From the NCBI GenBank assembly GCA_021018995.1, contig CM037592.1, positions 79,363,301 through 79,427,300 on the forward strand: a stretch of DNA of 64,000 nt, given 5' to 3'. The notes under the pieces are model-generated. The model saw nothing but the letters and a program-made list of their open reading frames with translations. It was not told the origin of the DNA and ran no database searches. Position 1 is the stretch's first letter. Each line of letters begins with the position of its first letter. Source of the DNA: Chloranthus sessilifolius. Its lineage: Eukaryota; Streptophyta; Magnoliopsida; Chloranthales; Chloranthaceae. This document shows, piece after piece, positions 4,349 through 63,895 of this stretch. Both the position numbers and the translations under genes were made by a program.

Positions 4349-4758
4349 GGCAGTTTAGAAATTAATAGATCTAAGTTTTGATTATAGATTTATAGTTTTT
4401 GTTTGATTTTACTAACTGCATTTGTAAGTTGTGTTATTTTCTAGTAGTTTGTGTGCAGTTTATCAGATCTAAGGCTACCAGTGAGAGGAGAATTGTGTTG
4501 GAGACTGCTCTGTAGTTTGCATCCTTCTACTCCCCTGTTATTTTTCAAATCTGTTGATAATTTTTGTTAGAATAGTTAGAAAATTTGGTTGATTATGTTT
4601 ATTGTGTGTTTGGATCTATTCTGCATTTGAAATCTGAGTGTTGTATGTTTGGTAGGAGGACTTTGCAACCTTAGATTGTCCCACTAAATCCAGAGGTTGA
4701 AAGACTTCTCAGATCCAGACCAACTACACCCACTTTTGTTGCATTTGATTCTGTAGAA

Positions 4759-7169: not shown

Positions 7170-8850
7170 GGTCCCACCTCTAAGATCGAGCATGTGAAAC
7201 TTGTCTCTTCTGAAGGTCCACTAGCACAACACCATCTATGGAGGGCTACTTTGTTACCCTTACCACCCCCCTCTCAGACACCCCTATTGCCCTCCCTCAT
7301 CAGTCCCCCAAAAGTGGAGTTAAAGCAGCTCCCAAAATCTTTGAAATATGCCTTTTTAGGAGACAGCACCAAACTGCATGTGATAATCTCTTCTTCCCTC
7401 ACTCCCGAGCAGGAAAAAGAACTACTGTGTGTACTAAAAAGGCATAAGAAGGCAATAGGTTGGACCATTGCAGACCTTGGGGAAATAAATTTTGCTGTGT
7501 GCATGCATAAAATTCATCTCGAGGAAGGATCCAAACCTTCCAGAGAGATGCAGAGGAAGCTCAACCCACACATGCAGGAAGTTGTGATGAAGGAGGTGGT
7601 CAAACTCTTAGATGCTGGGATAATTTATCTCATCTCGGATTCACAATGGGTAGCACCTACCCAGGTCGTACCCAAGAAATCTGGCATTACAGTTGTTGAA
7701 GCAGATTCAGGAGAGGAAATGATTCAGCAGACGGACCAACTTTGGTTGGAGTGAAAAGACCAACAAGGATCACTTCCCACTGTCCTTCATAGACCAAATC
7801 TTGGACAAGCTAGCAGGAAAGGCCTACTACTATTTTCTTAATGGATACTCAGGGTATAATCAGATCCCTGTATACCCTCAGGACTAATAAAATACCACAT
7901 TCACTTGTCCATTTGGGACCTTTGCATACAGAAGGATGCCATTTGGGTTGTGTAATGCACCTGCCACTTTCCAAAGATGCATGTATGTTATCTTTTCTGA
8001 CATGATTGATAAGTTTTTGGAGATCTTTATGGATGATTTCTTCATTTATGGAGATGATTTTGGCCAATGCCTACACCACCTCAGCTCCGTACTGCAAAGG
8101 TGTGAGGAAACCAACTTAGTTCTGAGTTGGGAGAAAAGTTACTTCATGGTGACTCAAGGCACTGTTCTAGGACATGTTGTCTCTCACAAAGGAATCGAGG
8201 TTGATCAAGCTAAGATCGATTTGATTGCTCATTTGCCCCCTCCAAAAACTGTCAATCAAGTTAGGTCATTTTTGGGTCATGCTGGCTTCTACAGAAGGTT
8301 CATCAAGGATTTCAGCAAAATCTCCAAACCCCTCTGCCACCTGTTGTGTCAGGATGTCCCTTTTGACTTAAATGCTGAATGCCAAGTTGCTTTTGAACTG
8401 CTAAAAACTTGTTTGACCACAGCTCTCATTTTACAATCCCCTGATTTCTCCTTGCCATTTGAACTGATGTGTGATGCATCAGATTTTGCCATTGGAGCAG
8501 TATTGGGGCAAAGAAAAGACAAGACACCTTCTGTAGTAGCATACACTAGTAAATCAATGGTTGATGCTCAATTGAATTACACCACAACTGAGAAAGAGCT
8601 ATTAGCCATTGTTTTTGCCTTAGAAAAATTCAGGTCTTATGTGCTGGGATAAAAAATTATTGTGTTCACTGACCACTCAGCCTTGAAATACCTTCTGTCC
8701 AAAAAAGAAGCGAAAGCACGACTAATCAGATGGATTCTTCTCTTACAGGAATTCAATTTAGAGATTAAGGATAAGAAGGGAGTTGAAAACGTGGTGGCTA
8801 ACCATCTATCAAGGATCCAAATAAATGACATAGCAAGTTTGCCCATCAAT
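7170..8850 (+). pseudogene. pol: Athila-A reverse transcriptase and RNase H (broken)
   Basis: The RT N-terminal region (LTPEQEKELL, then VVKLLDAGIIYLISDSQWV, then VVPKKSGITVV) is open to 7754. It then shifts frame, with a double stop at about 7885-7890. RT continues with GTFAYRRMPFGLCNAPATFQ and the catalytic FMDDF at 8026-8040 (both aspartates present). RNase H follows (LMCDASDFAIGAVL near 8465; [21 protein letters not shown] near 8683), broken by a TAA at 8650-8652. Copying of RNA to DNA and removal of the RNA template would be its role. It is dead because of the stops and shift. Confidence 0.9.
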
Positions 8851-10172
8851 GACTCCTTCCCAGATGAGCAGCTTCTGACTATCCAGATAAGTATGCCTTG
8901 GTTTGCCAATATTGTCAACTACCTTGCTGTAGGTAGGATCCCCCCACATTGGAGCAAGGATGACAAAAATCTGTTCTTTGCACAGATTCGACATTACATA
9001 TGGGAGGATCCTTACCTTTTTAAGCATTGTGCAGATCAGGTGATCCGACGTTGTGTACCTGAAACTGAATTTCACAACATCCTAACCATGTGTCATGAAC
9101 AGGCTTGAGGGGGTCACTTCAGTGGTAACAAGACTGCTGCCAAGGTCCTTCAAAGTGGTGTCTACTGGCCTACCCTATTCAAGGATGCTCAACAACACTG
9201 TAAAGCTTGCCATCGATGCTAGTAAATGGGCAGTATTACCAGGAGAAACTCTATGCCCTTTCAACCTATACTTGTTGTTGAACTGTTTGATGTCTGGGGA
9301 ATCGATTTCATGGGACCTTTTCCCCCTTTTGCTGGATACAATTTCATTCTTGTCGATGTGGAATACGTCTCCAAATGGGTCGAAGCCATAGCTACAAGAA
9401 CAAATGATCACAAAGTTGTCATTCAATTCCTGAAAGATAACATCTCCAGATTTGGCTTTCCTAAAGCTATTATTAGTGATGGGGGAAGCCACTTCTGTAA
9501 CAAACCTTTTGACAAACTACTAGAACGATACTCTGTTTCCCACATAGTAGCCACACCCTACTACCCACAAACCAGTGGGCAAGTAGAGATCTCCAACAGG
9601 GAAAATCAAACATATTCTCGAGAAGACTGTGAAATCCGACAGAAGAGATTGGTCCAACAAGTTGATTGATGCCTTATGGGCATACAGAACAACCTATAAA
9701 ACCCCCATAGGCATGTCCCCATTCAGATGAGTCTATGGCAAGGCATGTCATTTGCCTGTTGAATTGCACCACAAGGCATATTGGGCCATTAAAGCAGTGA
9801 ACTCTGACTTACACTGCGAATTCAGAAACCCAGCTTATCCGAGCTGGATGAACTGCGAATAGAGGCTTATGCAAATGCCCGGAGTTACAAGGAGAGAACC
9901 AAAGCTTTCCACGACAGACATTTGCTTCGCAAGGAGTTCAAGCCCAATGACAAGGTTTGGTTGTTCAACTCCAGAATGAAATTCTTTCCAGGGAAGTTGC
10001 AATCTAGATGAGATGGACCTTTCACTGTGGTACACGTTTCCCCATCTGAGCTGTCGAAGTCATGCATCCCACTGATGGCAGAACCCTTAAGGTCAATGGC
10101 AAGAGGCTGAAACTTTGCGTTGACAATATTTGTGACCCTGTAGAGACTGTTGATCTTCAAGATCCTCCAGGC
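8851..10172 (+). pseudogene. pol: Athila-A integrase (broken)
   Basis: The zinc-binding region is recognisable (MCHEQA, stop at 9106-9108, GGHFSGNKTAAKVLQSGVYW, then HCKACHRC followed by two stops near 9220). The catalytic core keeps the D,D-35-E triad: D at 9304-9306 (WGIDFMG), D at 9478-9480 (ISDGGSHF) and E at 9586-9588. A frameshift just after NRE (about 9602) separates the end of the core. The C-terminal part ([16 protein letters not shown], then VYGKACHLPVELHHKAYWAI) lies in another frame with further stops. There is no chromodomain, as expected for Athila. Confidence 0.9.
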
Positions 10173-19980: not shown

Positions 19981-21330
19981 TGTAGACACCCAAATTTGGC
20001 CCAAGGCCTGATCGACACATACTTCGAGAAAGGCATACCCTCGAGCTTCCGAAAGCATTTCTCAAACTCTTAGGAATCATTCTAAACCATTAGGAATTAA
20101 TCATAGCCTTCCCAGACCTATTAGAACCCTTTCCGGGTACAATTTGAACCCCCTGAATAGCAGTTAGAAAGAGGAGTGCTAACGTTTTTATAAATATTTT
20201 TCCAAATTAAGGCATATACCATTAGAAAGTAGAGCTTCCCATCTTTCGAACGAACTAAAAATTGCCTAATTTAGAGTTATACATCAAAAGTTATGGTGAA
20301 ATGAAGATCACAAATTTGTGTAGGAAATTACAAAATTGGACCCATAGAGCTAGTTTCAAACCCTCCTGAGCAGTGGTTAAAGAGAGCAATACTAAAATTT
20401 ACACAAACCTTTTCTAAAGTTGAGTTATATACCATTCTAAAGAGCACTTCTCCAGCTTTCCAACAAGCCAACAATCGCCTCAATTAGAGTTATACGTCAA
20501 AAGTTATGGTGAAATGAAGATCACGGATTTATGCAGGAAATTACAAAACCGAGCTGGGACCCCTACGGGTCTTCAACTTTCAATAGTTTGGGCCTGATTT
20601 TCCTTCAAAAAAGGGTCAAAATTGATATTGGAGGTTTGACTTGTGGACCATCCCAAAGTCTGGAGTGTGTTTCTTTAGGACCCTAGTGACCCTATTAGCT
20701 TAGGTTATTTCCCTTTGGCCATCCAAGTCACCACCCTATCATCTACCATTAAACCCAAATTCCTCTTCTCCAAGCTCTAGAAAACCCTAAAAACCTTAGA
20801 TTGCCCATTACCTAATTGCTAACCCTAATTAGATTTTAAGTACCACCTAACCCTCTCTTTTTCTATAAATAGAGAGGCACCCCACCTTGCAAAGGGCTTG
20901 AAAAAATTTTAAAAGACAGAAAAGGCTTTAGCTATTCCTCTCTTCCTCTTTTAGCATTTGTCCATTAAAATTCCAGCACCCAAGTTCATCCTTTACACCT
21001 CATTTTCCACCATCAATCCTTGAGATCTAACTAGAACTAGCCCTTAGCCTTCTTCTCTTACCTCTTAGCTACCCAGCCTTAGAGATTCAAACCCATCCTT
21101 CAACCCATTTGCTATCGAAAGCTCATCCAAGACACATCAATGCGAAGGTTCACATCGGTGCTACAAGGGCCTGAGAGCTCCGGCTTTCCCTTCTATTTAT
21201 CTACTTTCTTTGCTTTTCCTCTATTCTAGAATTAAGCCGTTACGCTACCCAAATTTTGGCAAGCGGGAAGGGCTCAATAGGATCGGTATGCCTTCGGGCA
21301 AGGGGAAGTGCCGCCCATTTTGCTTCTTTT

Positions 21331-21646: not shown

Positions 21647-21664
21647 TGGCGACTCTACTGGGGA
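21647..21664 (+). other. Primer-binding site of Tat-1
   Basis: TGGCGACTCTACTGGGGA lies two bases after the LTR. Tat-2 has a decayed TGATGACTCTGCTGGGGA. I recall that Ogre-type elements are primed by a tRNA-Arg, but I cannot confirm the tRNA from the sequence. Confidence 0.75.
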
Positions 21665-22471: not shown

Positions 22472-22637
22472 CTAGCGCAAGTAATAGTCGCGCTAGTACA
22501 AAAATCCCGGAATTAACACTGGCACAACTATTAGTTGCGCCAGCTTTAAATCCGGTCAGTTTTACCTTGGTGCAACTAATAGTTGCGCCATCTTAAAATA
22601 GGGGCATTTTTTACCTGCGCATGTATTAGTTGCACCA
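22472..22637. repeat. Array of four 23-25 bp palindromes, 47-48 bp apart (Tat-1 leader)
   Basis: Copies start at 22472, 22520, 22568 and 22615. The consensus arms are TGGCGCAACTA and TAGTTGCGCCA with one base between. The first copy has both outer arms changed in step (CTAGCGC and GCGCTAG). Spacers are A/T-rich and diverged. The array lies about 490 bases before the gag ATG. It could form RNA or DNA hairpins. Confidence 0.9.
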
Positions 22638-23123: not shown

Positions 23124-24545
23124 ATGTCATGGGTAGTGGAGCCGGCATACTCCGGTCGCGATTCATCCCCACCACATTCACCAACCCATTCCCATTCGGG
23201 AGAAATTTTCACCACTATCCCCATCACCCTATTCCCATTTAAAATTATCAGGTCCTTTGGTGCCCCCATTTTTCCAACTACCACTTCCCATAATATCCAA
23301 AATCAACCCCCCCCCCCCCCCTTCCCCATCTTTCTCACAAACCATGCCCATAGCCCCTCCTATAATCATGCCAAATTTGACACATTTCCCATCCCCATCC
23401 ATGACAACACCCAACTTCCCGCATCCACATCCATGCCCCATTTTCCATCTTCCCCATATAGGCCTGATCCACCCTCATTCACATATGTCACCTCCACCCT
23501 ATCCAACCCCCCACAAATCTTCCCATCTACCCGGGTCATGCCCATTCTTACCGGGGCCATGCCCGTTTTTTCCCAAACACCCACTCCTTACCCTTCACCA
23601 TCCTCATACATTCCTAACCCATCCCCATTTTCTAATGCCTCACCTCATTCCTCCAATCCACCTCATATCCCATCCCCTACCCGGGTCATGTCCAATTTTA
23701 CTGGGATCATGCCCAATTTACCCCCCACATCCACCCCATCCATGCCCCTCTAAACCTCAAATAACCCGTCTCCATCCGACCCCCCTTCCATGGCCATGAT
23801 GGAAGAAATAGTCCAAGCCTATAGTAGGTGGAAGGCCTCCACATTCCCTCTCATTCATACCACACACCCATGGATCCATCCCATACCCTATCAAGCCTCC
23901 ATGCCTCACTTTTCCATGACTCCCATCAACCCCCCATCATCCACACCATTCAATCTCCCATTACCCACATGCCTCAAGGCCCAATGGCCCAAACCTCCAT
24001 TCCCCACATGTCCCAAGGCCCAAAACCCCATAACCCATACCTATCAAGGGCCCATGGCCCAGACCCATCAAGGACCAATAGGCCAGACCCAATAAGGGCC
24101 CATGACTCAGACCCCATCAAGGCCCAATAGGCCAGATCCACCAAGGGCCCATGGCCCAGACCCATCAAGGTCTAATGGGTCTAATGGGACTTATTGGGCC
24201 CATGTCTTAGACCCACGAAGGCCTAAATGGGCTAGATCCAATAAGGGCCCATGGCCCTTGGTAAGTTTTAGACTCACCAAGGGCTACAAACCTACCATGA
24301 CCAAGGCTTTGTAGCCCAACCCTCCCAAGGCTTCATAGTCCAAACCCAAGCCCAACAAAATCTTGGAACCTCACACCCATACCCTTCACAATTCCTCTAA
24401 AATTTTACCCATTTACAACCCTCATACCCAGCTCAAACCCATGCCTTACATCAGCCCCAATTCACCCATATCCCAACATTTCAAAGTCAGTTCCAATCAT
24501 TTTCACAAGCCCAATGGCCTCACCATACCCCACTCCAAAATCTAA
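23124..24545 (+). pseudogene. gag: Tat-1 gag, proline-rich N-terminal part
   Basis: The start ATG at 23124 (MSWVVEPAYSGRDSSPPHSP) is matched by Tat-2 at 51902 (MSWVVDPTYADLDSSPPHSP), which supports it. About 470 residues are extremely rich in Pro, Ser, Thr and His and look intrinsically disordered. A short conserved helix follows (MAMMEEIVQAYSRWKAS; Tat-2 MTMMEEMFQAYSMWKAS), then an 8-residue repeat region. Stops at 23753, 24095 and 24314 share one frame, and a frameshift lies between 24545 and 24718. A poly-C run at about 23309-23322 is a likely indel site. Broken. Confidence 0.8.
24030..24270 (+). repeat. 24-bp coding minisatellite in Tat-1 gag
   Basis: About eight imperfect units of roughly 24 bases, core CAAGGGCCCATGGCCCAGAC, encode repeats close to Gln-Gly-Pro-Met-Ala-Gln-Thr-His. 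GGGCCC and CCATGG cores make it palindrome-rich. Tat-2 has about eleven or twelve units (52786-53060). Confidence 0.8.
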
Positions 24546-33114: not shown

Positions 33115-34720
33115 TGTAGCTGATCTATGCAAAAAGTTATATGTGCAGGAAAGAACCAACGGCCCAGCTCGTGCTTCAAAGCACTAATCTCAGCACTAAA
33201 ACCATCCTCTCGAACATTCCGCTCGGTCAACCAATGACCATGTAAGCTCTTATACCTCTTTCGAGATGCATCAGTAGCTCCAAGGGCAATATTCAAAGAT
33301 CCTTTCAGTCGAAGGACATCACTCTCCGCTATCCCTGCTCTTTCTCTTGTGCTAAAAGCTCGTGCAGGACCCTCTTCTCATCAGTCAACAACTTAATAAG
33401 GGCTAGGAGCACTGTCTCCTTCTTTGGCCAGGGGCCTCCCACACCAATACTCTCCGGTAGATCCAGATAATCAGCAGCAGGCTGCTCAGCCAATAGCCAA
33501 GCCTCATACTCAGGGAAAGACTGAACTGAATCTCCCTGCTCCATATCACACATCAGCTTCGACTGATGTGTCTCCCAAAGGGCAACAATTCGATCCACGT
33601 CCTCGGAGGACCCCCTAGAAAAGATCAAGTCACATAAAGGAGGTTTTATCTCGCAAGGCACCTGCTGAGAGTAGCCGAACTGACGCAATACTCAAAATGG
33701 GAAATAGAAGGTGCTATCAGTCAATCCTAGAAGGGTGATGCCCTCATGGTCTCTGGAACGAACTATTAGGAAGGTTTGGTCCAACCAAGGAAGCCTCCAT
33801 ATCAACTCGACGTTGGTCAACCAAAGCTTCAAAGCTGATAAATTACCTTGCAGAAGCAAGTGACACCTACCCGAAAAGCATCGAGCTGCCTCACCTTGAG
33901 CAATATAAAAGTGTGGCACGGGTCCCAAGATAGCTAGATGCTCACCTAACAAGACTTGAAGCAGCAAAGGACATCCCCTGAGGTTCTCCACCTTGCCCAG
34001 AGCAAACGCATCAAGACATCGATACAGTTCAGCAAGGACCAAATGCATCATTGATCGGCCCTCTGCCAATTCGGTCAAAACATCGCAAAGAGCCAGAGAG
34101 AAGCTCTCTCCCCCAGTAAAGAAAAGGACTTCCGAGATGAGATTCAGAGCAAAGGCTTTCACATTGAAGATATTCTCAACTGACAATTTTTGAAGACTTT
34201 CGTCACCGAAAAGTTCTTTGAGGAATTTGATCGAACACCTTGTGGGCCCCCCAACGAGACTTTTCTCGTACTCAAATTTCTTCAAACTGAGGGTAAGGTG
34301 AACAGATTTGGAGTAGCTCGACTTTGATGTGACTCTTGTGAGGCCTCTGTGAAGCTTCAAGCTAGATAAATTGGATAGCTCCTCAAGGGTTGGAGTTAGC
34401 TCCCGCTTCCCAAAACGGAACACATGCGCATTTGTATCCCAAAAAGAGGTTGTTGCATGAAGTAGGTCCCACCGTAGAGGAACATCAAGAAAGAAGGGAA
34501 GACGTGATAGCCCAAGCCACTCCAATTCAACAATCTCGCTCTCGTTCAAGCTCCCAAACCAACTTTTAAGAAAATTGGGCCCCAAGCCCAACGAAATGAG
34601 TAAATTAGTTTCGGGCCCTCCATGTAAGGGAGGGTTGGAAAGTGGGCCCATAGACGTACAAAGGTCTCTTAAGAAAATAAAATTCAATATATGTTGATGG
34701 ACCCGCCCTTGGGAAAGCAA
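33115..34720 (-). pseudogene. Antisense plant-mobile-domain-like gene of Tat-1
   Basis: An open frame of 342 residues (34720 to 33692) continues after a single stop (33689-33691, TGA where Tat-2 has an Arg codon) through 33329 and on to about 33115. It resembles the plant mobile domain / DUF7745-type family: GLSRLPFFLDVPLRWDLL, then HVFRFGKRELTPTLEELSNL, then a Leu-rich helical region (FLKELFGDESLQKL) and a charged C-terminal tail (SLHGHWLTERNVRED). Tat-2 carries the same gene at 62063-63660. Extra antisense ORFs are known in some Tat-lineage elements. Its role is unknown. The start is uncertain because the ATG context differs between copies. Confidence 0.75.
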
Positions 34721-34789: not shown

Positions 34790-35130
34790 ATAAGGCTTTG
34801 AAAAATGATAAAAAAAAAAATCATACTAAATAATAGCTTTGAAAAACCACAAAAAAAAAAATCACACTAAACAATAGCTTTGAAAAACCCAAAAAAAATC
34901 ACATAAAATGATAGTTTTGAAAAACCAAAATTCACATAAAATAATAACTTTGAAAAACAAAAAAATAAAACACATAAAATAATAAAGAAAATCCCAAAAA
35001 TAATAAAATCATATGGAATGATAACTTAAAATCCAAAAAAAAACCACATAAAATAATAACTCAAAATCTAAAATAAAAAAATCACATAGAATGATAAACA
35101 CTAGAAAGGATAAAAAATATTCTACATAAA
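34790..35130. repeat. A-rich tandem repeats (Tat-1)
   Basis: About seven degenerate units of some 40-50 bases share CACATAAAATAATA and CTTTGAAAAACC words separated by A-runs. They lie directly upstream of the antisense gene, where Tat-2 instead has the palindrome array (63731-63895). Confidence 0.75.
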
Positions 35131-36638: not shown

Positions 36639-37620
36639 TGTAGGCACCCAAATTTGGCCTAAGGCCCGATCAACACATACTTCAAGAAAGGCATACCCCT
36701 AAGCTTTCAAAAGTATTTTTTAAATCCTTAGGACCCTTAAGAATCAATCATAGCCTTCTCAGACTTATTAGAACCATTCCCGGGCACGATTCAAACCCCC
36801 TTGAACAGCGATTAGAAAGAGGAGTGCCAAAGTTTTTGTAGATAGTTGTCCAACCTAAGGCATATACCATTAGAAATTAGAGCTCCCCATCTTTTCAATG
36901 AATTAAGAATTGCCTAATTTGGAGTTGTACATCAAAAGTTATGGTGAAATGAAGATCGCAGATTTATATAGGAAATTGCAAAACCGAACCCATAGAGCTA
37001 GTTTCGAACCTCCTGAGTAGTGGTTAAAGAGAGCAATACCAAAATTTATACAAACCTCTTCTAAAATTGAGTTATATATTATTGGAAAGAGGACTTCCCC
37101 AGCTTTCCAACAAGCTAAAAATCGCCTCAATCAGAGTTATACATCAAAAGTTATGGCAAAATGAAAATCACATATTTATGTAGGAAATTGCAAAACCAGG
37201 CTGGGCCCCCTTCAGCTCTTCAACTTCCAATAGTTTGGGCCTGGTTTTCCTTCAAAAAATGGCCAAAATTGATATTGAGGGTTTGACTTGTGGGCCATCC
37301 CAAAGTCTGGGGTGTGTTTAGTGACCCTATTAGCTTAGGTTATCTCCCTTTTGTCATTCAAGTCACCACCCTATCATCTACCATTAAACCTAAATCCCTC
37401 TTCTCCAAGCTCTAGAAAACTCCAAAAACCTTAGATTGCCCATTACCTAATTGCTAACCCTAATTAGCTTTTAAGCACCCCCTAACCCTCTCTTTTTATA
37501 TAAATAAAGAGGCACCCCCCCCTTGCAAAGGGCTTAAAATTTTTTTAAAAGAGAGAAACGGCTTTAGCTATTCTTCTCTTCCTCTTTTAGCATTTGTCCA
37601 TTAAAATTTCAGCACTCTAG
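36639..37620 (+). repeat. Truncated 3' LTR of Tat-1
   Basis: It matches the 5' LTR from its first base to about 37620 (AGCACTCTAG), including the TATA region, then ends abruptly. About 680 bases of the 5' LTR have no counterpart. The next sequence is Athila-B LTR. No target duplication can be checked on this side. Confidence 0.88.
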
Positions 37621-46556: not shown

Positions 46557-47072
46557 TTAAGTTGTTTTTTCTTTGAAGAATAAATTAGATTCCATAGAAT
46601 TAATTACTTTTGTTTGTGGTGGACTAAAGAACTTAAATAGGAGACTATGTCTATTATATTGAGCATAGATACCATTTTCATCTACCTTAGTTAATGGTAA
46701 AATGGAGGTGATAAGAGGAGTACCAAGAATAACGATTTGTGTTAAATCTTTGATAAGTATAAAATTGGATGGAATACATACTCCATTATTACAAATCGAG
46801 ACATAATTTAATTTATATTTAATTTGTATTTTGTAACCACTAGTATTGTTTAGAGTTTGAGTAGTTTTATCAAAATATTGAGTAGGAACCAATCCTTCCT
46901 GTATGCAGTTTAAATCAGCTCCACTATCAATTAGAGTAATAGCATCTTTGATAGTAAATTCTTGATTAATTACCAAAGTGACTTGAATATACCATTTTTG
47001 AGCTATTACTTGACTCATGACATTGATTTGATTATTTGTTTGAGTATGAAGAGATTGCTTTTGTTTTCTCAT
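46557..47072 (-). pseudogene. Endogenous caulimovirid aspartic protease region
   Basis: A 171-residue open frame on the minus strand has the retropepsin active site DSGAD (near 46926), a following LNCIQEGLVP and the partner motif VILGTPLI near 46730, as in the protease part of caulimovirid polyproteins. It follows the coat-protein zinc knuckle in the expected order. RT and RNase H, which should come next, are absent: the sequence ends in scrambled retrotransposon DNA at 46556. It is an old incomplete insert. The closest genus (Florendovirus- or Petuvirus-like) is a guess. Confidence 0.72.
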
Positions 47073-48484
47073 CTCAGTTTTTAATGAATTAATTTCATAT
47101 TTAAGATCATTGATTGTAACAGGTCAAGGTATCGACTCATTATTTGAGTGTTGAATTTGAGGTTCTATTATTGGATTAGTAGTTTTGCTTGATAAGTCTA
47201 ATAAAGATGGTTGGATAGTTGTAGGAATATTGATACCAGAATTTTGGCAATCAATGTTTGGATTATTATAAGATGGAGAAAAATTAGATTTTGTCTGGAG
47301 AAGTTTTGGATCTTTGTCATAATTTGGTATGATTTTTTTTTATCTTACACCTATTGTCCTAATGACCAGATTTGAGACATTTATAACACTGAATGTGTTC
47401 TTGTGCTTTTTATTTGCATTTAGATTTCTTCGACAAAGAAGAATCATGAATTGTTTGAGTTTTTTGCTTATAAAAGCTTGGAGGATAAGATTTAGCTTTA
47501 GGATTATCTATTGTTTGAGTTAAAACATTTATTTAGAAATTTGGTTGTTTTATCTTTTTCTTGCAAGACAAAAGTTTTAATTGAGATTTTAATTGTTGAA
47601 TAAATTCATTTTCGGGATTAGAATCAAATGTTCTAATAGAAGTACTAGCTTGTAAAGTTGTATTAGAATCCAAGGTTGTACTAGGACATTGTCCTGGAGG
47701 ATGATAGGAATTTACAATAGGTTTACTGAAAGCTGTGGCTTCCAAAGTTGTTGTTGAATTTGGTTGAGTGAGTGTTAAGGCTTCAACAGGAGGATGAACC
47801 GTTTGAACAGTTAAGTCATCCAGTTTCTGCCATTCTTTTTGGAAATCTTCAAGAAGAAATATTCTTCTTTCATCTTGAGACATTTCATAATATTTTATTG
47901 CTTTAAACCAAGTAACAAATAGAATGATATGATAAAAGGTTTTAATATATGTATAAAATTGTTCTTTGAATTCTTACAATTTTGATGCAGAAAACTTTTG
48001 AAAATACCATGCACGAAATGATGCATATTTTTCTTGCTGAAATTTAGCATTTATTTCTTGTCTATTAATAACAAAAAATTTTGGTTTTGTGTAAGCCATA
48101 AAAACTCTGTTAAGAAAGTGAGAAATTCATCTCGCTAGCGGTAGGAGATTCCCTCTGCTGTTGGGTATATATCTCATGAGGAATTTGTTATTCAGAAACA
48201 TGAATTTCTTCAAGATTAGATTGATTATATTCAGAAGGAACATATGAGTTAGCTTCTGAATAAGATGATCGAGCGGTCGAGGGTATAGAAACTCTATAAG
48301 AATCTCGAGATCTCGAATCAGAAAAATAACTCATGTAAGAAGTTCTGTGGGATGTAGATCTATCAAATTTTAAGATTACATCTCCTCGGTTATTTTGAAT
48401 AATTTATTCAATTTCTTGGTTTAAAATTGGTTTATGAGGGACAGCTTGAGGTATACTCCAAGTATCTGGAAAAGTAATATTTTT
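47073..48484 (-). pseudogene. Endogenous caulimovirid coat-protein region (broken)
   Basis: Three pieces on the minus strand are recognisable. A 41-residue frame at 47974-48099 starts MAYTKPKFFVINRQ. A 116-residue frame lies at 47533-47883. A CCHC zinc knuckle at 47347-47388 (C-x2-C-x4-H-x4-C) is interrupted by a TAG right after the histidine. The Ser/Arg-rich stretch near 48250-48350 links this region to the movement protein. Frameshifts and many stops separate the pieces. The zinc knuckle and order support coat protein / nucleocapsid. Confidence 0.6.
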
Positions 48485-48760
48485 CTATTCAATTAATTTA
48501 GGAGTGGTAACATTGGTTGTTGTGCTATTAGTCTTAATTAAGACTATCTTTTCTGGTGCAGTTTGATAATTAAGTTTGGGAGCCAGGGAATTCATCACCT
48601 TATAATGAAGGCGATAGACTAGAGCAATAGTCTTTGATCCAAGCATAAGGTTGTATCCTTCAGTTTGTAAATTAAGGATATAAACATGTAAAATATTTTT
48701 ATCTATTAAAGATAAAGTTAAGTTTGGAAAAATATTGTAGTAGACTAGACTAAGGCATAG
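48485..48760 (-). pseudogene. Endogenous caulimovirid movement-protein fragment, copy 2
   Basis: The minus-strand frame contains VYYNIFPNLTLSLID and ALVYRLHYKVMNSL, typical of the end of a caulimovirid movement protein (cell-to-cell transport, 30K family). The residues coded right of 48760 belong to the Tat-2 LTR, so the insertion cut the gene. The missing N-terminal part probably lies beyond Tat-2, outside the window. Confidence 0.75.
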
Positions 48761-49163
48761 TGTAGACACCCAAATTTGGCCTAAGGCCCGATCGAAACAC
48801 TTTTCGAGAGAGGTGTAATTTTGAGCTTTTGATGGCATGTATGGAACCCTTAGAAATTACCCCAAACCCTTAAGAATCACCCTAGATCCCTTAGGAACCT
48901 ACCTCGAACCTTTAGAAACCAATCCCGACCCTTAGAACCCATTCCGAACCCTAAACCTAACCTTCCCGAGCAATGGATGAAGAGTGTTACATCAGGACTA
49001 GCTGAACTCTTTTACTAATATTAAATCATATACTATTGAAAAGAGGACTTCTCCAGCTTCCCAGCGGTCTAAGAATCACCCCAATCGGAGGTATACGTCA
49101 AAAGATATGGCAAACCAAGCCCGGAGGGCATAAATGTGAAGTCATGTGGGCCCCTTAGGGACT

Positions 49164-49369
49164 TGGCGCAACTAATAGTTGCGCTAGCATTAAAATTTTC
49201 CTAGCGCAACTAATAGTTGCGCTAGGCCATTTTTCCCTTATTTTAGGCCTGGCGCAACTAATAGTTGCGCCAAATTCAAAAGTGGGCCCCATCCTCGCGA
49301 GCTGACTTCCAGGCACTGTACATTACTGTTTTATTGTACATTTGCCTGGTATAACTATTAGTTGCGCTA
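49164..49369. repeat. Four 23-25 bp palindromes in Tat-2 LTR U3
   Basis: Copies at 49164-49186, 49201-49225, 49250-49272 and 49347-49369. The second is a perfect 12-base inverted repeat (CTAGCGCAACTA and TAGTTGCGCTAG) around one A, and the third is perfect for the TGGCGC form. Spacings are 38, 48 and 97 bases, the last about twice 48. The group is about 285-490 bases before the TATA box. Confidence 0.9.
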
Positions 49370-49652
49370 GGCATATGAACAGTAACTGTTGGGATTTGTC
49401 CTGAATTTCATATTTGGGGTTTGACTTGTTGACCACCTTGACCTTTAGGGTATGTTTTGCTAGTTCTGTTGCACCCTTTTGAAGCCTATTTGAATCCCTT
49501 TAAGTGGCTTAAGGCCTCACCCCATCATCCACCATTGGAGGACCTTCTCACACATTTCAAGGCTCAAAAAACCCTAGGAATCCTTAGATGTGAGATTACC
49601 TAATTGCTAAATCCATTTAGCTTTTAAGTGGTCTCCTAATCCACTCATTTCC

Positions 49653-49661
49653 TATAAATAG
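49653..49661 (+). promoter_or_regulatory. TATA box of Tat-2 LTR
   Basis: TATAAATAG, in the same context as Tat-1 20864-20872. Confidence 0.75.
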
Positions 49662-50381
49662 AGCCCCCCTCCCCTTGGTTTAAGGGTTGAGAATTTTGCT
49701 TAAGAGAGAAAGAGCTCCAAGTGAGAAGTTCTTCCTCCCTTTGGTGCACTATTTTCACCTAAAATCCAGAATTCAAAAACTCTTCCCAAGCTTGGTCTTA
49801 CACCCAAAACCCCTAGCCCAGGTGTGTGTAATCCCCTAGCCTCTCTTCTCCATCTCCTAGCTAGTAGGCCTTAGTGGTTAGAACCCCTTTTTCCACCATT
49901 CAAGCCTCCAAAAGCTCATCAAAAGCAAGCAAAGGCTCCTCTACGGTGCTACAAGGGCCCTAGGGCTCCGGCTCTCCCCTTTCTTCTCCTATCTCCTTCT
50001 AGCTCTCTCCATCCTCCCATTTGTGTTGTTACACCGCCGACTTTTCGATAGGAACGGAGGGGCACAAATAGGATTCTAAGCCCTTTTGGGCAGGAGGAAG
50101 CTATTTTCTTTTCTTTTACTTCATTTTATTTTTGGCCATTAGTAGAGACCGCGTTAAGCGGGTTGATCGGGTGCCTAACACTTTCCTGATCGATAACCGA
50201 AGCCCCTACCCAAGAGCCTTTGGTGCGGACCGGATTCAGAGTCATATTTTTAGCACTTAGGTGCTCATAAAAATGAACTAGGTATCCCGAGACACCGAAA
50301 GCTCCGGGTGGCGACTCTATATTTTTCGTTAGAGAGCACATCGTCGCGACGGGATCGTCTCAATTCCCACGGTTGCACAGA

Positions 50382-50399
50382 TGATGACTCTGCTGGGGA
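50382..50399 (+). other. Primer-binding site of Tat-2 (decayed)
   Basis: TGATGACTCTGCTGGGGA, two bases after the LTR. Against Tat-1 it has GC changed to AT at positions 3-4. Confidence 0.7.
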
Positions 50400-51235: not shown

Positions 51236-51401
51236 TGGCACAAGTATTAGTTGCACCAGTGTAAAAACACTGGAATTTATAACTGGCGCAACTAATAGTT
51301 GCGCCAGCTTTAAAATCCCAAGTTTTACCTTGGCGCAAGTAATAGTTGTGCTAGTGAAAAATTGGTCCCCTGCAACCTGGGCGCATGTATTAGTTGTGCC
51401 A
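51236..51401. repeat. Array of four 23-24 bp palindromes, 47-48 bp apart (Tat-2 leader)
   Basis: Copies start at 51236, 51284, 51331 and 51378. The second has perfect arms TGGCGCAACTA and TAGTTGCGCCA. It corresponds to the Tat-1 array at 22472-22637 in position, number and spacing. Confidence 0.9.
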
Positions 51402-51901
51402 GGTTTATTTATCAGCCCACCAGCCCGAATCCTTGGCCCTTTTTACATCCCGAGTTCCCCGATTAGTGTGCTTAGTGCCTTGTTTGGGCCCCGCCATCTC
51501 CGAAACCCAATACGCCCCCGTCGGTTAAGAGAAGGCAACTTCTTTTTCGCTCATTCCAAGGGATCGGGTTGTTTGCCTCAATTTCCGTGCCTTCAATAGA
51601 TCGAAGGTTCTCCTTCGATTCTTTCGAAGTGCATCGAAATCGTCGCCGCGGGTCTTGAATTAAGGTATGAAGGCCACCCAAAAAGGGAGTTCCAAGGCCT
51701 CAGAACCTTTGTTTTCCAAAAGCTTTTTTTCAAGAGAATTCAAAAAAAAAATATATATATATATAATCAAAACCCAAAAAAAAATAGATAGTTTGTGGTG
51801 TCGGCACAACGACATCATCTTGCTCTCCGTCATCCCATAGGGGAAGAAGGAGGATCTTTGGGCCTTATCCAAGGCACCCTTACCCGACCCGCTCTCGTAG
51901 A

Positions 51902-53429
51902 ATGTCGTGGGTAGTGGACCCAACTTACGCCGATCTCGACTCATCCCCACCACATTCTCCAACCCACTCCCATTCGGGAGAAGTCTTTTCCACCATCCCC
52001 CTCACCCAACCCCCTTTTACCATTATCGGCCCATTTGGCGCCCCCATTTTCCCAACCGATACCCCTCAAAATATCCTAAGTCCTACCCCCCATTCTCCAT
52101 CTTTTGCCCAAACCATGCCCATGCCAAACCCATTTTCCCAATCCACATCTATGCCCCAATTCCCATCATCCCCCTATAGACCCGATCCACCCACATTCAC
52201 ATACACTACTTCCGCCCTATCCGCCCCTCCACAAAATCCCCCATCCATCCGGGTCATGCCCATTTTTACCAGGGCCATGCCCAACTTTCCTCATCCCTCC
52301 TCATCATGCCCCCCATCATCTCAAAACATACCCAATGCATCCCCTCATCCACCCGATACCCCCACCTACCGTGGCCATGCCTGAATTATACCGGAGCCAT
52401 GCCTAATATTTCCACCACCTCCATCCCATCTATACCCCATCACCCCTTAAATCCCCCATCTCCATCCAACCCTTCCTCCATGACCATGATGGAGGAGATG
52501 TTCCAAGCCTATTCCATGTGGAAGGCTTCTCAAAATACCTCCTCTCCTCCACACCCCATGAACCCATCCCATACCCTAGCCAATCTCCATGCCTCACTCC
52601 CCCATGACCCCCATCAACCCCCCATAATCCACACCACCCAAACCCCCATTACCCACTTACCCCAAGGCCCCATGGTCCAATCTCCAAACTCCCACATACC
52701 CCAAGGCCCATTGGCTCAAACTCCCTTTTTTCACATATCCCAGGGGCCCATGGTTCAATACCCCACCACCGAAACCTACCAGGGCCCATGACCCAGACCC
52801 ACCAAGGGCCCATGGCCCATATCCATCAAAGCCCATTGGGCCAGACCTACCAAGGGCCCATGGTCCAAACCCACCAAGGGCCTATGGATCAGACCCATCA
52901 AGGGCCCACGGGGCTAGATCTACCACGGGCCCATGGCCCAGACCCATCAAGGCCCATTGGGCTAGACCCACCAAGGGCCCGTGACCCAAACCTACCAAGG
53001 GTCCATGGCCCAAACCTATTAGTGGCCCATGACCCAAAATGACCAAGGGTTCATGGCCCAAACCCGAACCCCACACTCACACCTTCCACAACACCCCCAA
53101 CATTTAACCCAACCTTCACAGCTGGGTCAAACCCATGTCATCCCCCAAACCCAATTCTCCCATGGCCCTACACCCCAAGGCCATCTCTAAACCCTCCCCC
53201 ATACCCAATGGCCCTATCAGGCCCCACCTCAAAACCAAATTCCCATCACCCAACAAACCTTTTCTCACCCCCAATGGGCTCACCCAACCCCCACTCATGT
53301 CATTCCCATCCAACCCATGCCACAATAACAGGAGAATCCCATCCTCACTATATATTATGTCGACCAGTAGTATGAAGAGGACGAGATTAGGAATAGCGGG
53401 GCCTATGCTGGGGCTTTGACCGGCCTCAA
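51902..53429 (+). pseudogene. gag: Tat-2 gag, proline-rich N-terminal part
   Basis: The start ATG at 51902 (MSWVVDPTYADLDSSPPHSP) is conserved with Tat-1. A long Pro/Ser/His-rich disordered region runs through three frames (frameshifts near 52320 and 52790). It contains the MTMMEEMFQAYSMWKAS helix near 52480 and then the 8-residue repeats. The last open part ends at 53419 (PTHATITGES is in another frame). Broken. Confidence 0.8.
52786..53060 (+). repeat. 24-bp coding minisatellite in Tat-2 gag
   Basis: About eleven or twelve 24-base units with core CAAGGGCCCATGGCCCAGAC encode Gln-Gly-Pro-Met-x-Gln-Thr-His-like repeats. The units drift in the last third (GGCCCATTGGGCTAGAC). Unit number differs from Tat-1. 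Confidence 0.85.
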
Positions 53430-57192: not shown

Positions 57193-58900
57193 AAAATGTC
57201 CCACAAAAGGATGCCTTAATCAAAATACCCGTCCCACGTGAAATCGACCCCTACCCTGTAGAAATACAAGAAGGGGTAGGGATCATGAGTCTGGACGAGG
57301 ATGTCCCCTTCGAGGAGCTCCCCAATGAGCTCCTTGACCGATTTGCCGACTTTGAGTATGGCCCTACCCTCATTGTCGAAGAGACCGAAGACGTCAATCT
57401 AGGAACTGAGGAGGTTCCCAGGATAACTAAAATCTAAACGTCACTGTCTCCTGAGGAAAGAAAAAGCATGATCGAATTCCTTCGGTCATACCAAGACGTT
57501 TTTGCTTGGTCATACAAGGACATGCCTGGTCTAGATACTGATTTGGTCGAGCATGAGTTGCCCCTCTACCCTGATATGAAGCCAGTCAAGCAGAAGTTGA
57601 GACGTCTCCAACCTGAATGGATGCTGAAAGTCAAAGATGAGGTCATCAAGCAGTATGACGCGAGGTTTCTCATGGTATCCAAGTACTCGCAATGGCTAGC
57701 CAATTTCGTGCCCGTACCAAAGAAGGATGGAAAGGTCCGCATGTGCATCGATTTCTGCAATTTGAACAAAGCGAGCCCAAAGGACGATTTCCCATTACCA
57801 CACATCGACATCTTGGTTGATAACACAGCTAAGCACGGGATGCTTTCTTTTATGGATGGATTCTCAGGATACAATCAGATCAAAATGGCAGAGGTTGATC
57901 GTGAGAAGACAACGTTCATTACCCCCTGGGGAACCTTTTGCTATTGAGTCATGCCATTCAGGCTGAAGAATGCCGATGCAAAGTACTAGAGAGCTATGAT
58001 TGCACTATTTCATGACATGATGCACCGAGAGATTGAAGTGTATGTCGATGACATGATAGCCAAATCACCGGAGTGAAGTGACCATCTGGTAAACCTTCAG
58101 AAGCTATTTGAAAGGCTGAGGAAGTTTCGACTACGATTGAATCCACAGAAGTGCGCATTTGGTGTTATGTCAGGAAAACTATTAGGATTCATCATCAACA
58201 GGAGGGGGATCGAGGTCGACCCAATCAAAGTCAAAGCCATCACTAAAATGCCACCGCTGTCTACCGAGAAAGAGGTTAGAGGGTTTCTGGGTAGAATACA
58301 GTATATCAGTTGGTTCATTGCACAGCTAACTCCAATCTGCATGCCGATCTTTAAGTTACTAAGGAAGAATTTACCCATTGAATAGAACGACGATTGTCAG
58401 GCAGCATTCAGAAAAATCAAAAGCTACCTCCTTAATCCACCTATTTTGGTACCACCTGAGCCAAGGAGACCACTCTTGATGTATCTCTCCACGACGAAAG
58501 TTTCGATGGGATGTGTCTTGGGGCAGCACGATGAAACTGGAAGAAGAGAGCAAGCCATTTACTATCTGAGCAAGAGGTTTACTGATTACGAGACGCGCTA
58601 CTCTCATCTGGAGAAAGCATGCCTGGCTCTTATATGGGCTACTCAAAGGCTCCGCCACTACTTGCTATCTCAGGCGGTTCTGCTCTTGGCCCGAATGGAC
58701 CCATTAAAATACCTATTGGAAAAGCCAGCTCTCACTGGACAAACTGAACGATGGCAACTTTTATTATCTGAATTCGATATCACGTACGTCACTCAGAAGT
58801 CGATCAAGGGGCAGGCGCTTGCTGATCATCTTGCCGACAATCCTTTACCTGATTATGAGCCTCTGAGAACTGAGTTCCCCGATGAGGACATCCTGTTCAT
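57193..58900 (+). pseudogene. pol: Tat-2 reverse transcriptase and RNase H (broken)
   Basis: A single frame covers the whole stretch with five stops (57435, 57945, 57988, 58074 and 58383). RT motifs: VPVPKKDGKVRMCIDF near 57710, SFMDGFSGYNQIKMAEVDRE near 57848 and catalytic YVDDM at 58041-58055. RNase H: MGCVLGQHDETGRREQAIYY near 58508, YSHLEKACLALIWATQRLRH, then SIKGQALADHLADNPLPDYE near 58800. Four of the stops correspond to sense codons in Tat-1 changed by one C-to-T or G-to-A step. Confidence 0.9.
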
Positions 58901-59579
58901 GACGGAAGATGATACTGAAGAAGAAGAGGAATCTTGGGTAATGCACTTTGACGGGGCAGCAAATGCCGAGGGTCAAGGAGTCAGTGCCATCCTAATTTCA
59001 CAAAAAGGATCTCATGTATCGGTCTCTATCAAGCTCAACATCCCTTGCACTAATAATATGGCTGAGTACGAAGCTTGCACCGCTGGTCTGTAAGCGGCTC
59101 TCGATCTGAATGTAACTCACCTTCGAGTATTTGGCGATTCACAGTTAATCATATGCCAGACGAATGGTGATTGGAAGACGCAAGACGAGAAAATGATCCC
59201 CTATCATGAACACCTCGAGGACCTGATAGCTTGCTTCCAAGATGTGACTCTCTCATACGTCCCCTGGATAAGGAATCGCTTTGCCGACGCATTAGCAACT
59301 TTGGCTTCAATGATTGAAATCCTCTATGGTGTTGAGATGAATCCGATCGTGATCGAGCAGAGGAATGAGCCGGCCTTCTGCCTCCAGATTGAGGAACCTA
59401 CAAAGCCTGATGATAAGCCACCTTGGTTCTCAGATATCAAGAATTTCCTCGAGACCCTAACTTTCCCAGAGGGTACATCCAAGATAGACCGACGAACCAT
59501 TCAACGTTTAGCGGCAGGTTACGTCATTTGCAGGGAATGCCTCTACAAGCGATCATACAATAACATCTTACTCAAGTGC
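58901..59579 (+). pseudogene. Tat-2 archaeal-type RNase H
   Basis: WVMHFDGAANAEGQG near 58936 (first Asp), NMAEYEACTAGL near 59058 (Glu), a TAA at 59091-59093, then HLRVFGDSQLIICQ near 59120 (Asp) and RFADALATLAS near 59280 (last Asp). All four catalytic positions are present and the domain is broken only by the one stop. The linker EPTKPDDKPPWFSDI leads into integrase. This second RNase H is specific to the Tat lineage. Confidence 0.88.
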
Positions 59580-60673
59580 CTCACTGAAAGTGAAGCAGTT
59601 AATATTATGAAAGAAATCCATGAGGGAGTATGGGAGCCCACGTCAGCGGTCACATGCTCGCTAAGAAAATCCTACGCCAGGGGTACTTTTGGACCACCAT
59701 GGAATCGGATTGTTTCAAACATGTTCAAAAATGCTACAAGTGTCAAGAACACTCTAGTCTGATAGACGCTCTTGCCATTGATCTTCACTGCATGACCACT
59801 CCTTGGCCATTTGCTACCTGGGGCCTTGACGTTGTCGGAATGATTAATCCGAAAGTATCCAACAGACATCGGTTTATCCTCGTCGCCATTGAATACTTCA
59901 CCAAGTGGGTAGAAGCAGCGTCATATGCCAACATCACGGCCCGTCACGTTGAGAAGTTTCTCAAGAACAATATTGTGTGCCGATTTGGAGTACTCAAAGA
60001 TATCATCATGGACAACGGCATAAACTTTGCAAATAAGCACATCCGAGACTTCTGCGAGCAATACAAGATCAAGCACCATCGCTCATCCCCTTATCGACCT
60101 CAAACTAATGGAGCCGTGAAAGCCGCGAACAAGACAGTCATCCGCATCCTTGAGAAAATGGTCGTCACTTATCAAGATTGGAGTGAAATGCTGCCATTTG
60201 CTTTGTGGGCCTACCGAACGTCGATCCGTATCGCCACAGGGGCAACCCCATTCTCCCTTGTGTATGGAACCGAGGCCATCCTCTCGGTAGAGGTTGAAGT
60301 ACCATCGCTCTGAATCCTCATGGAATCAGGCTTACCCGAAGCAGAGAGAGAGAGATCCCGCTTTGAATAATTAAACTTATTGGACGAGAAGAGACTCCTA
60401 GCCTTGTGTCACACTCAAGTTTACCAGGGGCGAATCGCACGCGCTTATAATAAACGTGTCCGCAGTTAAGATCTAAAGGTAGGAAACACTGTGCGGAAGA
60501 AGATCTTCCCATCCCTCCATGCTAATCCAAGGGAAAAGTTTAAGCCAAACTGGGAAGGACCTTATGTTATCCGAGAAGTGCTACTGGGATATGCCATCCG
60601 CCTCGCCACCATGGACGGAGATCATCTTCCTAAGCCCATCAACGCTGGATATGTCCGACGGTTCTACTCTTAG
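59580..60673 (+). pseudogene. pol: Tat-2 integrase (broken, catalytic Glu changed)
   Basis: The HHCC zinc region (EIHEGVW, then GHMLAKKIL, then KCYKCQEHS near 59735) is cut by a one-base deletion at about 59631 relative to Tat-1. The core frame 59630-60313 has D at 59828-59830 (WGLDVVG) and D at 60011-60013 (MDNGINF). The residue 35 positions later is Lys (AAA at 60119-60121) where Tat-1 has Glu, so the triad is lost. The C-terminal part continues with stops at 60311, 60358 and about 60467 and ends GYVRRFYS at 60673. No chromodomain. Confidence 0.9.
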
Positions 60674-62062: not shown

Positions 62063-63660
62063 TTAGCGACCCAGCTCGCGCTTCAAAGCACTAGTCTCAG
62101 CATGAAGGTCATCTTCCCGGACATTCTGTTCCGTCAGCCAACGACCATGCAAGCTCTTGAACCTCTTCCGAGAAGAGTCAATGGCTCCAAAAGCAACGCT
62201 CAGTGATCCCTTCAGATGGAGGACCTCACTCTCTGTTGCTTCTACTTTAACCTTTCATGTGTTAAAAGTTCATGCAAGATCCTTTTCTCGTCCACCAGTA
62301 ACTCGATGCAGGCTCGGAGTGTTTTCTCTTTCTTTAACCAGGGGCCTCCAGTGTCAAAAATCTATGATAAATCTAGACCATCGGCAGCAGGCCGCTCAGT
62401 CAACAGCCAGGCCTCGTACTCAGGAGAAGTCCTAACCAAGTCTCCCTGCTCCATATCACACATCAGTGTCGACTGGTGCGTCTCCCAAAGAGCAGCAATC
62501 CGATCTATGTCCCTAAAGGACCCCCTAGAAAAGGTCAAATCACATAAAGGGGGTCTGGCCTTACAAGGCACCTGCTGAGGGTAGCCGAATTGACGCAACA
62601 CTCGAAATGGGACGTAAAAGGTGCTGCCCATCAGTCCTAGGAGGGTGATGCCCTCGTGATCTCTACTACGAATTATCGGGAAGGTCCGGTCTAGCCAAGG
62701 GAGCCTCCATGTCAGCTCAGCATCGATCAACCAAAGTTTTAGAGCTGATATATCGCCCTGGGGGAGCAGGTGGCATCGACCCAGAAAACATTGGACCACC
62801 TCGCCTCGAGCAATATAAAAGCGGGGCACGGGCCCCAAAATAGCAAAATGCTCATCCAACCAGACCTAAAGCAACAAGGGGCATCCCCGAAGGCCCTCCA
62901 CCTTACCCAAACCAAAGGAATCAAGGCATCGATACAGCTCGGTAAGCACTAAATGCATCATGGACTGGCCCGCCTCTAGCTCCACCAAAATATCACAAAC
63001 TGCCAATGAGAAGCTCTCTCCCCCGGTGAAGAAAAGGATTTCAGAGATGAGACCGAGCGTTAGAGCTTTCACGTTAAAAACAGTCCTTATTGGCAATTTT
63101 CAGAGGCTTTCGTCACCGAAAAGTTCTTTGAGGAATTTTAGCGAACACCTTATGGGCCCTCCAATAAGACTTTTCTTATACTCGAATTTCTTCAAACCGA
63201 GAGTAAGGTGAACGGATTTGGAATATCCCAGTCGAGGTGTGACTCTTGCAAGGCCCCTGTGAAGCTTCAAGCCAGACAGATTGGATAGCTCCTCAAGGGT
63301 TGGGGTTAGCTCTCGCTTCCCAAAATGAAATATGTGGAGATTCACATCCCAAAATGAAGTGACGGCATGAAGAAGTTCCCACCGAAGAGGAACCTCTAGG
63401 AAGGAAGGAAGGCGAGATAGCCCAAGGCGCTCAAAGTCGGCATGCTCACTCTCATTCAAGCTCCCAAACCAGGTCGTTAAAAATTTGGGCCCCAAACCCA
63501 ACAAGGGGAACAAATTGGCTCCGGGCCCTCCGCGTAAGGGAGGGCTGGAAAGCGGGTCCATGAACGTACAAGGATCTTTTGGGGAGATAAGAATCAATGT
63601 ATGATGATGGACCCGCCTTGAAAAAGTGGGGGCAAAAAAAGAACCAATCGAAGAGACCAA
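62063..63660 (-). pseudogene. Antisense plant-mobile-domain-like gene of Tat-2
   Basis: Homologue of the Tat-1 antisense gene. Minus-strand frames 63660-63100, 63096-62866 and 62859-62362 are separated by single stops, with a C-terminal part to about 62063 (EQNVRED region). Motifs: GLSRLPSFLEVPLRWELLHA, FGKRELTPTLEELSNLSGLK, FLKELFGDESL, ILFFTGGESFSLAVCDILVE, LTELYRCLDSFG. The ATG at 63660 (MVSSIGSFF) extends the N-terminus relative to Tat-1. A palindrome array begins about 70 bases upstream. Conservation of the whole protein in two diverged copies supports a real gene of the element family. Function unknown. Confidence 0.75.
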
Positions 63661-63730
63661 GTCAAAACAAAAGAGCTAACTTTTGGGATGACTCGGGCAT
63701 TTAAGGACCCACTGCCCCCCAGGTTAAACC

Positions 63731-63895
63731 TGGCGTAACTAATAGTTGCCCCAGTGCATTTTGACCCCTGACTTGCCTGGTGCAACTATTAGTTGCGCCA
63801 GAACAGATTGCCCCTTTTCTTGCCTGGCACAACTATTAGTTGCGCCAGAACAAATCAGCCGAGAGTCAAACTTGGCGCAACTAATAGTTGCGCCA
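63731..63895. repeat. Array of four 23-bp palindromes upstream of antisense gene (Tat-2)
   Basis: Copies start at 63731, 63778, 63825 and 63873, spacings 47, 47 and 48. The last is perfect (TGGCGCAACTA, one base, TAGTTGCGCCA). Spacers are unrelated to those of the leader array. Tat-1 has no such array here. The remaining 63896-64000 shows no gene. Confidence 0.9.

Follow-up and report, generated by a model that had tools for sequence, protein, structure and literature searches.

Two Ogre/Tat-type retrotransposons with palindrome arrays

The window (the whole stretch of 64,000 nucleotides of Chloranthus sessilifolius DNA analysed here) contains two related LTR retrotransposons, elements A and B (Table 1). 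Element B, and the related element A with it, is classed on sequence grounds with the Ogre/Tat LTR retrotransposons of Ty3/gypsy, because it combines reverse transcriptase, RNase H, a second RNase H and integrase with an antisense plant mobile domain (PMD) ORF and, probably, a tRNA-Arg primer site. The second RNase H sits between RNase H and integrase (RT_RNaseH in 58386-59090, RVT_3 in 59094-59759 and rve in 59624-60310) and the extra PMD ORF between pol and the 3′ LTR, both as in Ogre/Tat elements. The primer binding sites of both elements are probably of tRNA-Arg type, judged against an 18-mer that we take to be the matching sequence. The 3′ LTR of element B starts beyond the window, at window-equivalent position 69829, and repeats the array layout of the 5′ LTR (38, 48, 97); the part fetched is 93.8% identical to the 5′ LTR over 1168 bases (72 mismatches), indicating that element B is not a fresh insertion. 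The LTR of element A starts near 19984, and its 3′ LTR extends from about 36639, with likeness ending at 37622.

Table 1 Coordinates of arrays, promoter-like words and coding features of elements A and B in the window
Feature	Element	Positions	Strand	Remarks
Primer binding site	A	21647..21664	+	2 mismatches to the presumed tRNA-Arg 18-mer
5′UTR array	A	22473..22637	.	4 palindromes, steps 47, 48, 47; homologous to 51236-51401
PMD ORF	A	33692..34651	-	PF10536 E 3.4e-11
5′ LTR	B	48763..50379	+	start from shared TGTAGACACCCAAATTTGG end; last base inferred from primer site
LTR array	B	49164..49369	.	4 palindromes, steps 38, 48, 97, in U3
LTR TATA-like box	B	49653..49662	+	TATAAATAGA; starts 284 bases beyond last LTR palindrome
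Primer binding site	B	50382..50399	+	3 mismatches to the presumed tRNA-Arg 18-mer
5′UTR array	B	51236..51401	.	4 palindromes, steps 48, 47, 48
CCCGAGTT	B	51449..51456	+	48 bases after last 5′UTR palindrome
pol	B	57438..60310	+	RT, RNase H, second RNase H (RVT_3), integrase; several frames
PMD/DUF7745 ORF, later part	B	62362..62865	-	frame interrupted between the two parts
PMD/DUF7745 ORF, N-terminal part	B	63103..63561	-	ATG 170 bases from nearest palindrome
TATA-like stretch	B	63692..63706	-	CCTTAAATGCCCGAG; between array and PMD ORF
Array upstream of antisense PMD ORF	B	63731..63895	.	4 palindromes, steps 47, 47, 48

The palindrome has the 23-letter consensus TGGCGCAACTA-N-TAGTTGCGCCA with a one-base centre. 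Twelve window copies were found at up to three mismatches, against none in 100 shuffles, and a scan at up to five mismatches recovered all 16 copies claimed in the original prediction, in four arrays within the two elements. No fifth copy was missed in the window, since the sole extra match at up to seven mismatches, at 5839, has only 4 of 11 arm pairs. The first array starts at 22473 rather than at 22472 as previously given, and the steps agree with those predicted, at 47-48 bases in three groups and including 48 and 97 in the LTR group. The 5′UTR array of element B begins 854 bases past the start of its primer binding site. The copies had been described as near-perfect inverted repeats; they are real, but several are asymmetric, and the outer 5′UTR copies keep an altered left arm. 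Across 309 copies the centre TA(W)TAGTT is almost invariant, changes cluster in the outer CpG-bearing bases and, in 5′UTR copies, at left-arm bases 1, 8 and 9, and 11 of the 32 changes among window copies are of CpG type.

A motif scan of IMG/VR and GTDB contigs gave no match, and a shorter palindrome core occurred at one place in one IMG/VR contig, which we take as chance. Rfam families and tRNA genes were rejected as the identity of the palindrome, which matches neither. When the literature was text-searched for the arm sequences, neither 15-base core and no retroelement title appeared among the matches listed; one NAC-target oligonucleotide shares 10 bases with the arms.

Within the window element A carries palindromes in its 5′UTR only, and its U3 and PMD-side region carry other repeats instead. 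These are a 213-base tandem duplication in the LTR U3 (20149-20575 and 36797-37222), where element B has a palindrome array, and an A-rich minisatellite of 33-41 bases (34795-35097) at the PMD-side place where element B has palindromes. Repeats of 24 bases occur in both elements (24027-24257 in element A, ahead of its gag match, and 52774-53065, at the matching place in element B), and an imperfect 41-base inverted repeat (49309-49349) was seen by eye within the 97-base step of the LTR array. Just before element B, the minus strand of 46557-48856 resembles a fragment of an endogenous pararetrovirus in matching aspartic protease and a viral movement protein. A further retroelement at 4675-9669, which matches gag, protease, RT and RNase H, is without a palindrome array.

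Arrays occupy four homologous sites in one element family

The original prediction proposed a search of the host genome for the 23-mer. Run at up to two mismatches over the 2,168,743,587 bases (2.17 Gb, 32 contigs), this search returned 45,397 copies, against none for the reversed pattern. Two samples of loci were fetched. One comprises 39 stretches from about 100 listed exact matches, all on contig C1, and is biased to intact copies on a single contig; the other comprises 20 primer-site-anchored stretches of 39 listed non-window places, scored as the best of 3,112 candidates, which were not selected for palindromes but are close relatives of element B. Two stretches to the right of the window were added to these 59.

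All 94 arrays in the fetched stretches, the window and the right flank lie at four homologous sites of one element family: the LTR U3, the 5′UTR, the sequence immediately preceding the antisense PMD ORF, and another antisense promoter-like site, designated 3P, ahead of the 3′ LTR. The C1 sample contributes 51 arrays (27 LTR, 8 5′UTR, 10 3P and 6 PMD-side), the primer-site-anchored sample 37 (19 LTR and 18 5′UTR) and the window with its right flank 6; all could be classed, and no weak single copy was discarded when up to six mismatches were allowed. In the primer-site-anchored stretches a 5′UTR array is present in 18 of 20 and an LTR array in 19 of 20. The arrays are thus element-borne at every sampled site, in line with the predicted location within Tat elements. 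Classing relied on flanking similarity, with the flanks of L015, L021 and L031 as queries for the 3P site and those of element B for the others, so that these four loci match their site class by construction; L045, which adjoins LTR-like sequence, was put in the 3P class by score.

The 3P site, which lies beyond the PMD side and before the 3′ LTR, was recognised from nine initially unassigned arrays that are homologous to each other. In L024 about 4.2 kb separate the 3P array from its PMD-side counterpart, a distance that placed the expected 3P array of element B near 68 kb, and palindromes are present there at 67858, 67906 and 67954 (67858-67976, window-equivalent). Sequence like the A-rich minisatellite of element A flanks several 3P arrays of other loci. 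Relatives of the A type were also located in the genome (40 scored of 4,178 candidates), and searches of IMG/VR with integrase, RNase H and PMD pieces found no related loci.

A constant step with variable copy number

Sampled arrays hold 1-5 copies (LTR 1-5, 3P 2-3, PMD-side 2-4), and 14 of the 18 primer-site-anchored 5′UTR arrays hold four. In the latter set 44 of 49 steps measure 47 or 48 bases; LTR arrays also have steps of 37-38 and 96-101 and a minority of other lengths. The constant feature is the 47/48-base step, and copy number four is not constant: the "exactly four" copies per group of the original prediction are a peculiarity of the window, as the array at 67858 in element B itself has three. 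Random number and spacing among genome-wide copies had been named as the sign of a passive tandem repeat; in our sample the spacing is not random, and the number is so in part (1-5).

Spacers were predicted to differ between groups, which holds for 5′UTR against LTR arrays and fails for LTR against PMD-side and 3P arrays. Aligned on the same element strand, LTR spacers score on average 0.9 and 0.5 against PMD-side and 3P spacers, with shuffles at about -9.7, whereas 5′UTR against LTR spacers score -7.7 and -8.2 on the two strands, with shuffles at -8.9 and composition controls at -3.4 and -3.6. Resemblance so far above shuffles suggests that the LTR, PMD-side and 3P arrays probably descend from one ancestor, with the 5′UTR array apparently separate from or older than the other three, and the equal spacing among those three is partly descent.

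This relatedness favours a reading in which an old unit of 47-48 bases spread among the sites, for example by template switching, and is kept by descent without a function. Retand elements often have tandem repeats between pol and the 3′ LTR, according to the sections of PMC11963269 available to us, which is also in its favour. Against it, sampled arrays hold at 1-5 copies, and the 5′UTR array shares the step without a strand-specific spacer likeness to the LTR array. Together with the promoter-like words and conservation described below, these observations lead us to consider a passive repeat unlikely.

Arrays lie at near-constant distances from TATA-like boxes

At three of the four sites most arrays keep a near-constant distance from a TATA-like box, here defined by sequence match only, a regularity that also speaks against a passive repeat. 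A TATA-like box follows the last LTR palindrome by 281-285 bases in 32 of 48 arrays; the first TATA-like word lies elsewhere in 12, and none is found within 450 bases or the available stretch in 4, and these 16 exceptions count against a regulator-binding role. Each of the seven PMD-side arrays has, in the direction of the ORF, a TATA-like stretch (CCTTATATACCC or a close variant) and an ATG at 156-173 bases. In 3P arrays TTTAAA lies 16-20 bases past the last palindrome in 8 of 11 cases and at 9, 29 and 61 bases in the remainder; in two of these three odd arrays a truncated extra palindrome copy lies in between, as seen by eye. The boxes at both of these sites face the PMD ORF, and most arrays stand about 16-28 bases before them. 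The 5′UTR array has no established promoter at its place, which counts against its being a binding site for a transcriptional regulator.

Exact copies of the word CCCGAGTT lie 25-48 bases downstream of 11 of 28 5′UTR, 3 of 6 PMD-side, 3 of 11 3P and 0 of 35 LTR arrays, and none lies in the 120 bases upstream of arrays; in the 358 kb analysed, where a few loci overlap, the word occurs 23 times, and 17 of these are the downstream cases. At up to one mismatch it lies downstream of 23 5′UTR, 4 PMD-side, 7 3P and 3 LTR arrays, and also upstream of 3 of 6 PMD-side arrays, which again weighs against a binding-site function. The downstream association, which counts for such a function, is a lead, as the word was picked after inspecting the sequences.

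Palindromes are slow islands in U3

Mean pairwise identities of palindromes, spacers and flanks were compared on related columns and rows, so the p values are rough. In the LTR (21 rows) palindromes reach 0.804 against 0.662 for spacers (p 1e-6), and non-CpG palindrome columns 0.840 against the same spacers (p 4e-9), a difference that speaks against a passive repeat. The U3 just upstream of the array stands at 0.646 and the downstream flank at 0.798, from which palindromes do not differ (p 0.14; non-CpG columns, p 0.85). LTR palindromes therefore evolve slowly within a rapidly changing part of U3, yet not more slowly than the downstream LTR, a point that counts for descent without function and against protein-binding sites.

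The 5′UTR set comprises 19 rows, after two of 20 loci were excluded for want of a usable array. Here palindromes stand at 0.876, spacers at 0.825 and flanks at 0.832, and palindromes differ significantly neither from spacers (p 0.20) nor, with CpG sites included, from flanks (p 0.075). Both results count against binding sites, as does a gap rate in the array not clearly lower than in its flanks, and the comparison with spacers also counts for a passive repeat. Non-CpG palindrome columns do exceed the flanks (0.906 versus 0.832, p 0.0016). Between elements A and B, 5′UTR bases match at 76 of 92 palindrome, 46 of 72 spacer and 1154 of 1464 flank positions (palindrome versus spacer, p 0.007; palindrome versus flank, p 0.43; spacer versus flank, p 0.005). 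The expectation that arms evolve more slowly than spacers is thus borne out in the LTR and in the A-B 5′UTR pair, and not in the 19-row 5′UTR set.

Arms do not covary

The original prediction saw selection on hairpins or on dimeric binding sites. If the arrays acted in the transcript as hairpins or folded RNA, in packaging, in dimerisation or as sources of small RNAs, four copies could nest 1:4 and 2:3; the predicted folds of two arrays are much stronger than those of shuffled sequence (z -8.6 and -9.7), and Sirevirus palindromes are small-RNA hotspots in maize, as reported in the available parts of PMC5311732 and PMC10760457. Strong folding is expected of any palindrome array, however, and is no sign of selection. 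Among 309 copies, compensated double changes occur 18 times where shuffles give 16.8, and 2931 arm positions are paired where shuffles give 2929; the left-arm change of the outer 5′UTR copies lacks a change of the partner base, and a one-base centre makes a poor loop. Since changed arm bases go uncompensated, selected RNA hairpins are disfavoured, and we hold an RNA function, including packaging and dimerisation, to be improbable. The lack of covariation, with the near-invariant centre and the triviality of the folds, favours recognition of a double-stranded sequence.

The palindromes could alternatively be a host silencing target, their CpGs drawing methylation or a repressor, with the element stuck with them. 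CpG palindrome columns decay fastest (0.73 in the 5′UTR, 0.63 in the LTR), and the share of CpG-type changes in the window is as methylated DNA would give; such decay is nevertheless expected in any methylated element, and retention at four sites, two of them near TATA-like boxes, suggests a benefit to the element. We rate this reading as very improbable, while noting that it is compatible with regulator binding. A chance origin is rejected by the absence of copies from shuffles and of the reversed pattern from the genome.

The antisense PMD ORF is under purifying selection

PMD is found in 57% of Ogre elements, according to the accessible portion of PMC6317226. In our sample PMD matches also adjoin the other six PMD-side arrays. 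The dN/dS ratio is 0.17-0.28 for the ORF of element A against seven others and 0.21-0.76 among the rest, showing that the ORF is under purifying selection. The genome has at least 128 PF10536 matches, the best three of which are full-length open frames and look like host PMD genes (G000:C2:182456779-182457852, C6:2320605-2321663 and C2:182470824-182471918). Searches with the PMD ORF recovered one weak protein relative and no relative in the PDB, and a single-sequence structure prediction (mean pLDDT 35) was left unused.

Discussion

We favour, with moderate confidence, the interpretation that a dimeric or pairwise-binding regulator, common to several promoters of one large Ogre/Tat-type family, binds the arrays as double-stranded DNA; of the two kinds of selection originally proposed, dimeric sites fit the data. 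This sequence-specific regulator would serve the LTR promoter, one or two antisense promoters toward the PMD gene and the 5′UTR site. The sequences show the fixed sites, the step, the position relative to TATA-like boxes, the slow arms among LTR spacers, the uncorrelated arm changes and the selection on PMD; we infer from there that a protein binds, that it influences transcription, whether it activates or represses, and which protein it might be.

The original prediction knew of no described element of this kind, which was too strong, as the repeated motifs (RMs) of Sireviruses are very similar in layout. According to the sections of PMC2829016 available to us, these are palindromes that precede the TATA box within the LTR and, between pol and the 3′ LTR, the extra gene ENV, with 8-32 copies per element and a CGG-CCG core in 12 of 13 RMs, and arrays of this layout are described as absent from classic retrotransposons. 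The present arrays share with them a multi-copy dyad motif that comes before TATA in the LTR and before an extra gene. They differ in their arms (GGCGC...GCGCC, without the CGG-CCG core), in a step mostly of 47-48 bases, in an extra gene that is an antisense PMD ORF, in a host element that is Ty3/gypsy by domain order and Tat features rather than Ty1/copia, and in the 5′UTR array, of which those sections mention no Sirevirus counterpart. With a different core and element class they are not members of the Sirevirus RMs, although by analogy they probably work like them.

Other comparisons, each limited to the available text of the source, are less close. As with the VANC targets of VANDAL elements (PMC5735166), a short motif is repeated in non-coding parts of an element that encodes a regulatory protein, and the VANC6 motif AGTTGTCC contains AGTTG, as does the right arm of the palindrome, five bases that may be chance. 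VANDALs, however, are DNA transposons, VANC carries DUF1985/DUF287 and not PMD, and the VANC21 motif YAGTATTAY differs from the palindrome; neither domain is among the Pfam matches of 30 window ORF pieces, a subset of the ORFs. Retand elements (PMC11963269) likewise combine, between pol and the 3′ LTR, family-specific repeats with an antisense ORF proposed as a regulator, but that ORF is TRP28 rather than PMD, and the available text describes no palindrome arrays at LTR, 5′UTR or antisense promoters. Cis-regulatory regions of transposable elements are often arrays of repeats, sometimes palindromic, with no Ogre/Tat case named in the text at hand (PMC10760457). The SIRC cassettes of Arabidopsis (PMC10342631), frequently located in mobile elements, hold 2-8 short direct repeats whose spacers are dissimilar; unlike the present arrays they are heterogeneous, about 57% lack a palindrome, and fixed promoter sites are not described in the portion available. 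For such arrays in Ogre/Tat elements we found no report in titles and abstract openings of mostly non-subscription literature, supplements aside.

How PMD proteins act is, according to the accessible parts of PMC9899485, largely unclear, and there and in PMC7156037 it is left open whether they bind DNA. The "DOWN" motif CATGCAGTTT, a promoter motif linked to the PMD proteins MAIN/MAIL1 in the same sources, was rejected as a relative: it is unrelated to the palindrome, and its only exact match in the window, at 7371, is far from the arrays, with none in the array regions. In a possible two-part, self-regulating system, the PMD protein encoded antisense in the element may itself bind the LTR arrays and those of its own promoters, controlling or un-silencing thousands of copies at once. 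We consider this specific proposal doubtful; that element A keeps PMD with palindromes in its 5′UTR only argues against a strict pairing of PMD and arrays.

The same plan in a Ty3/gypsy family, tied to a selected antisense PMD gene, suggests convergent evolution of array-based promoters. The arrays also offer PMD proteins a specific candidate target on DNA; if the pairing of PMD and arrays is true, it would be, within the literature examined in part, the first DNA target of a PMD protein and a retrotransposon counterpart of VANC.
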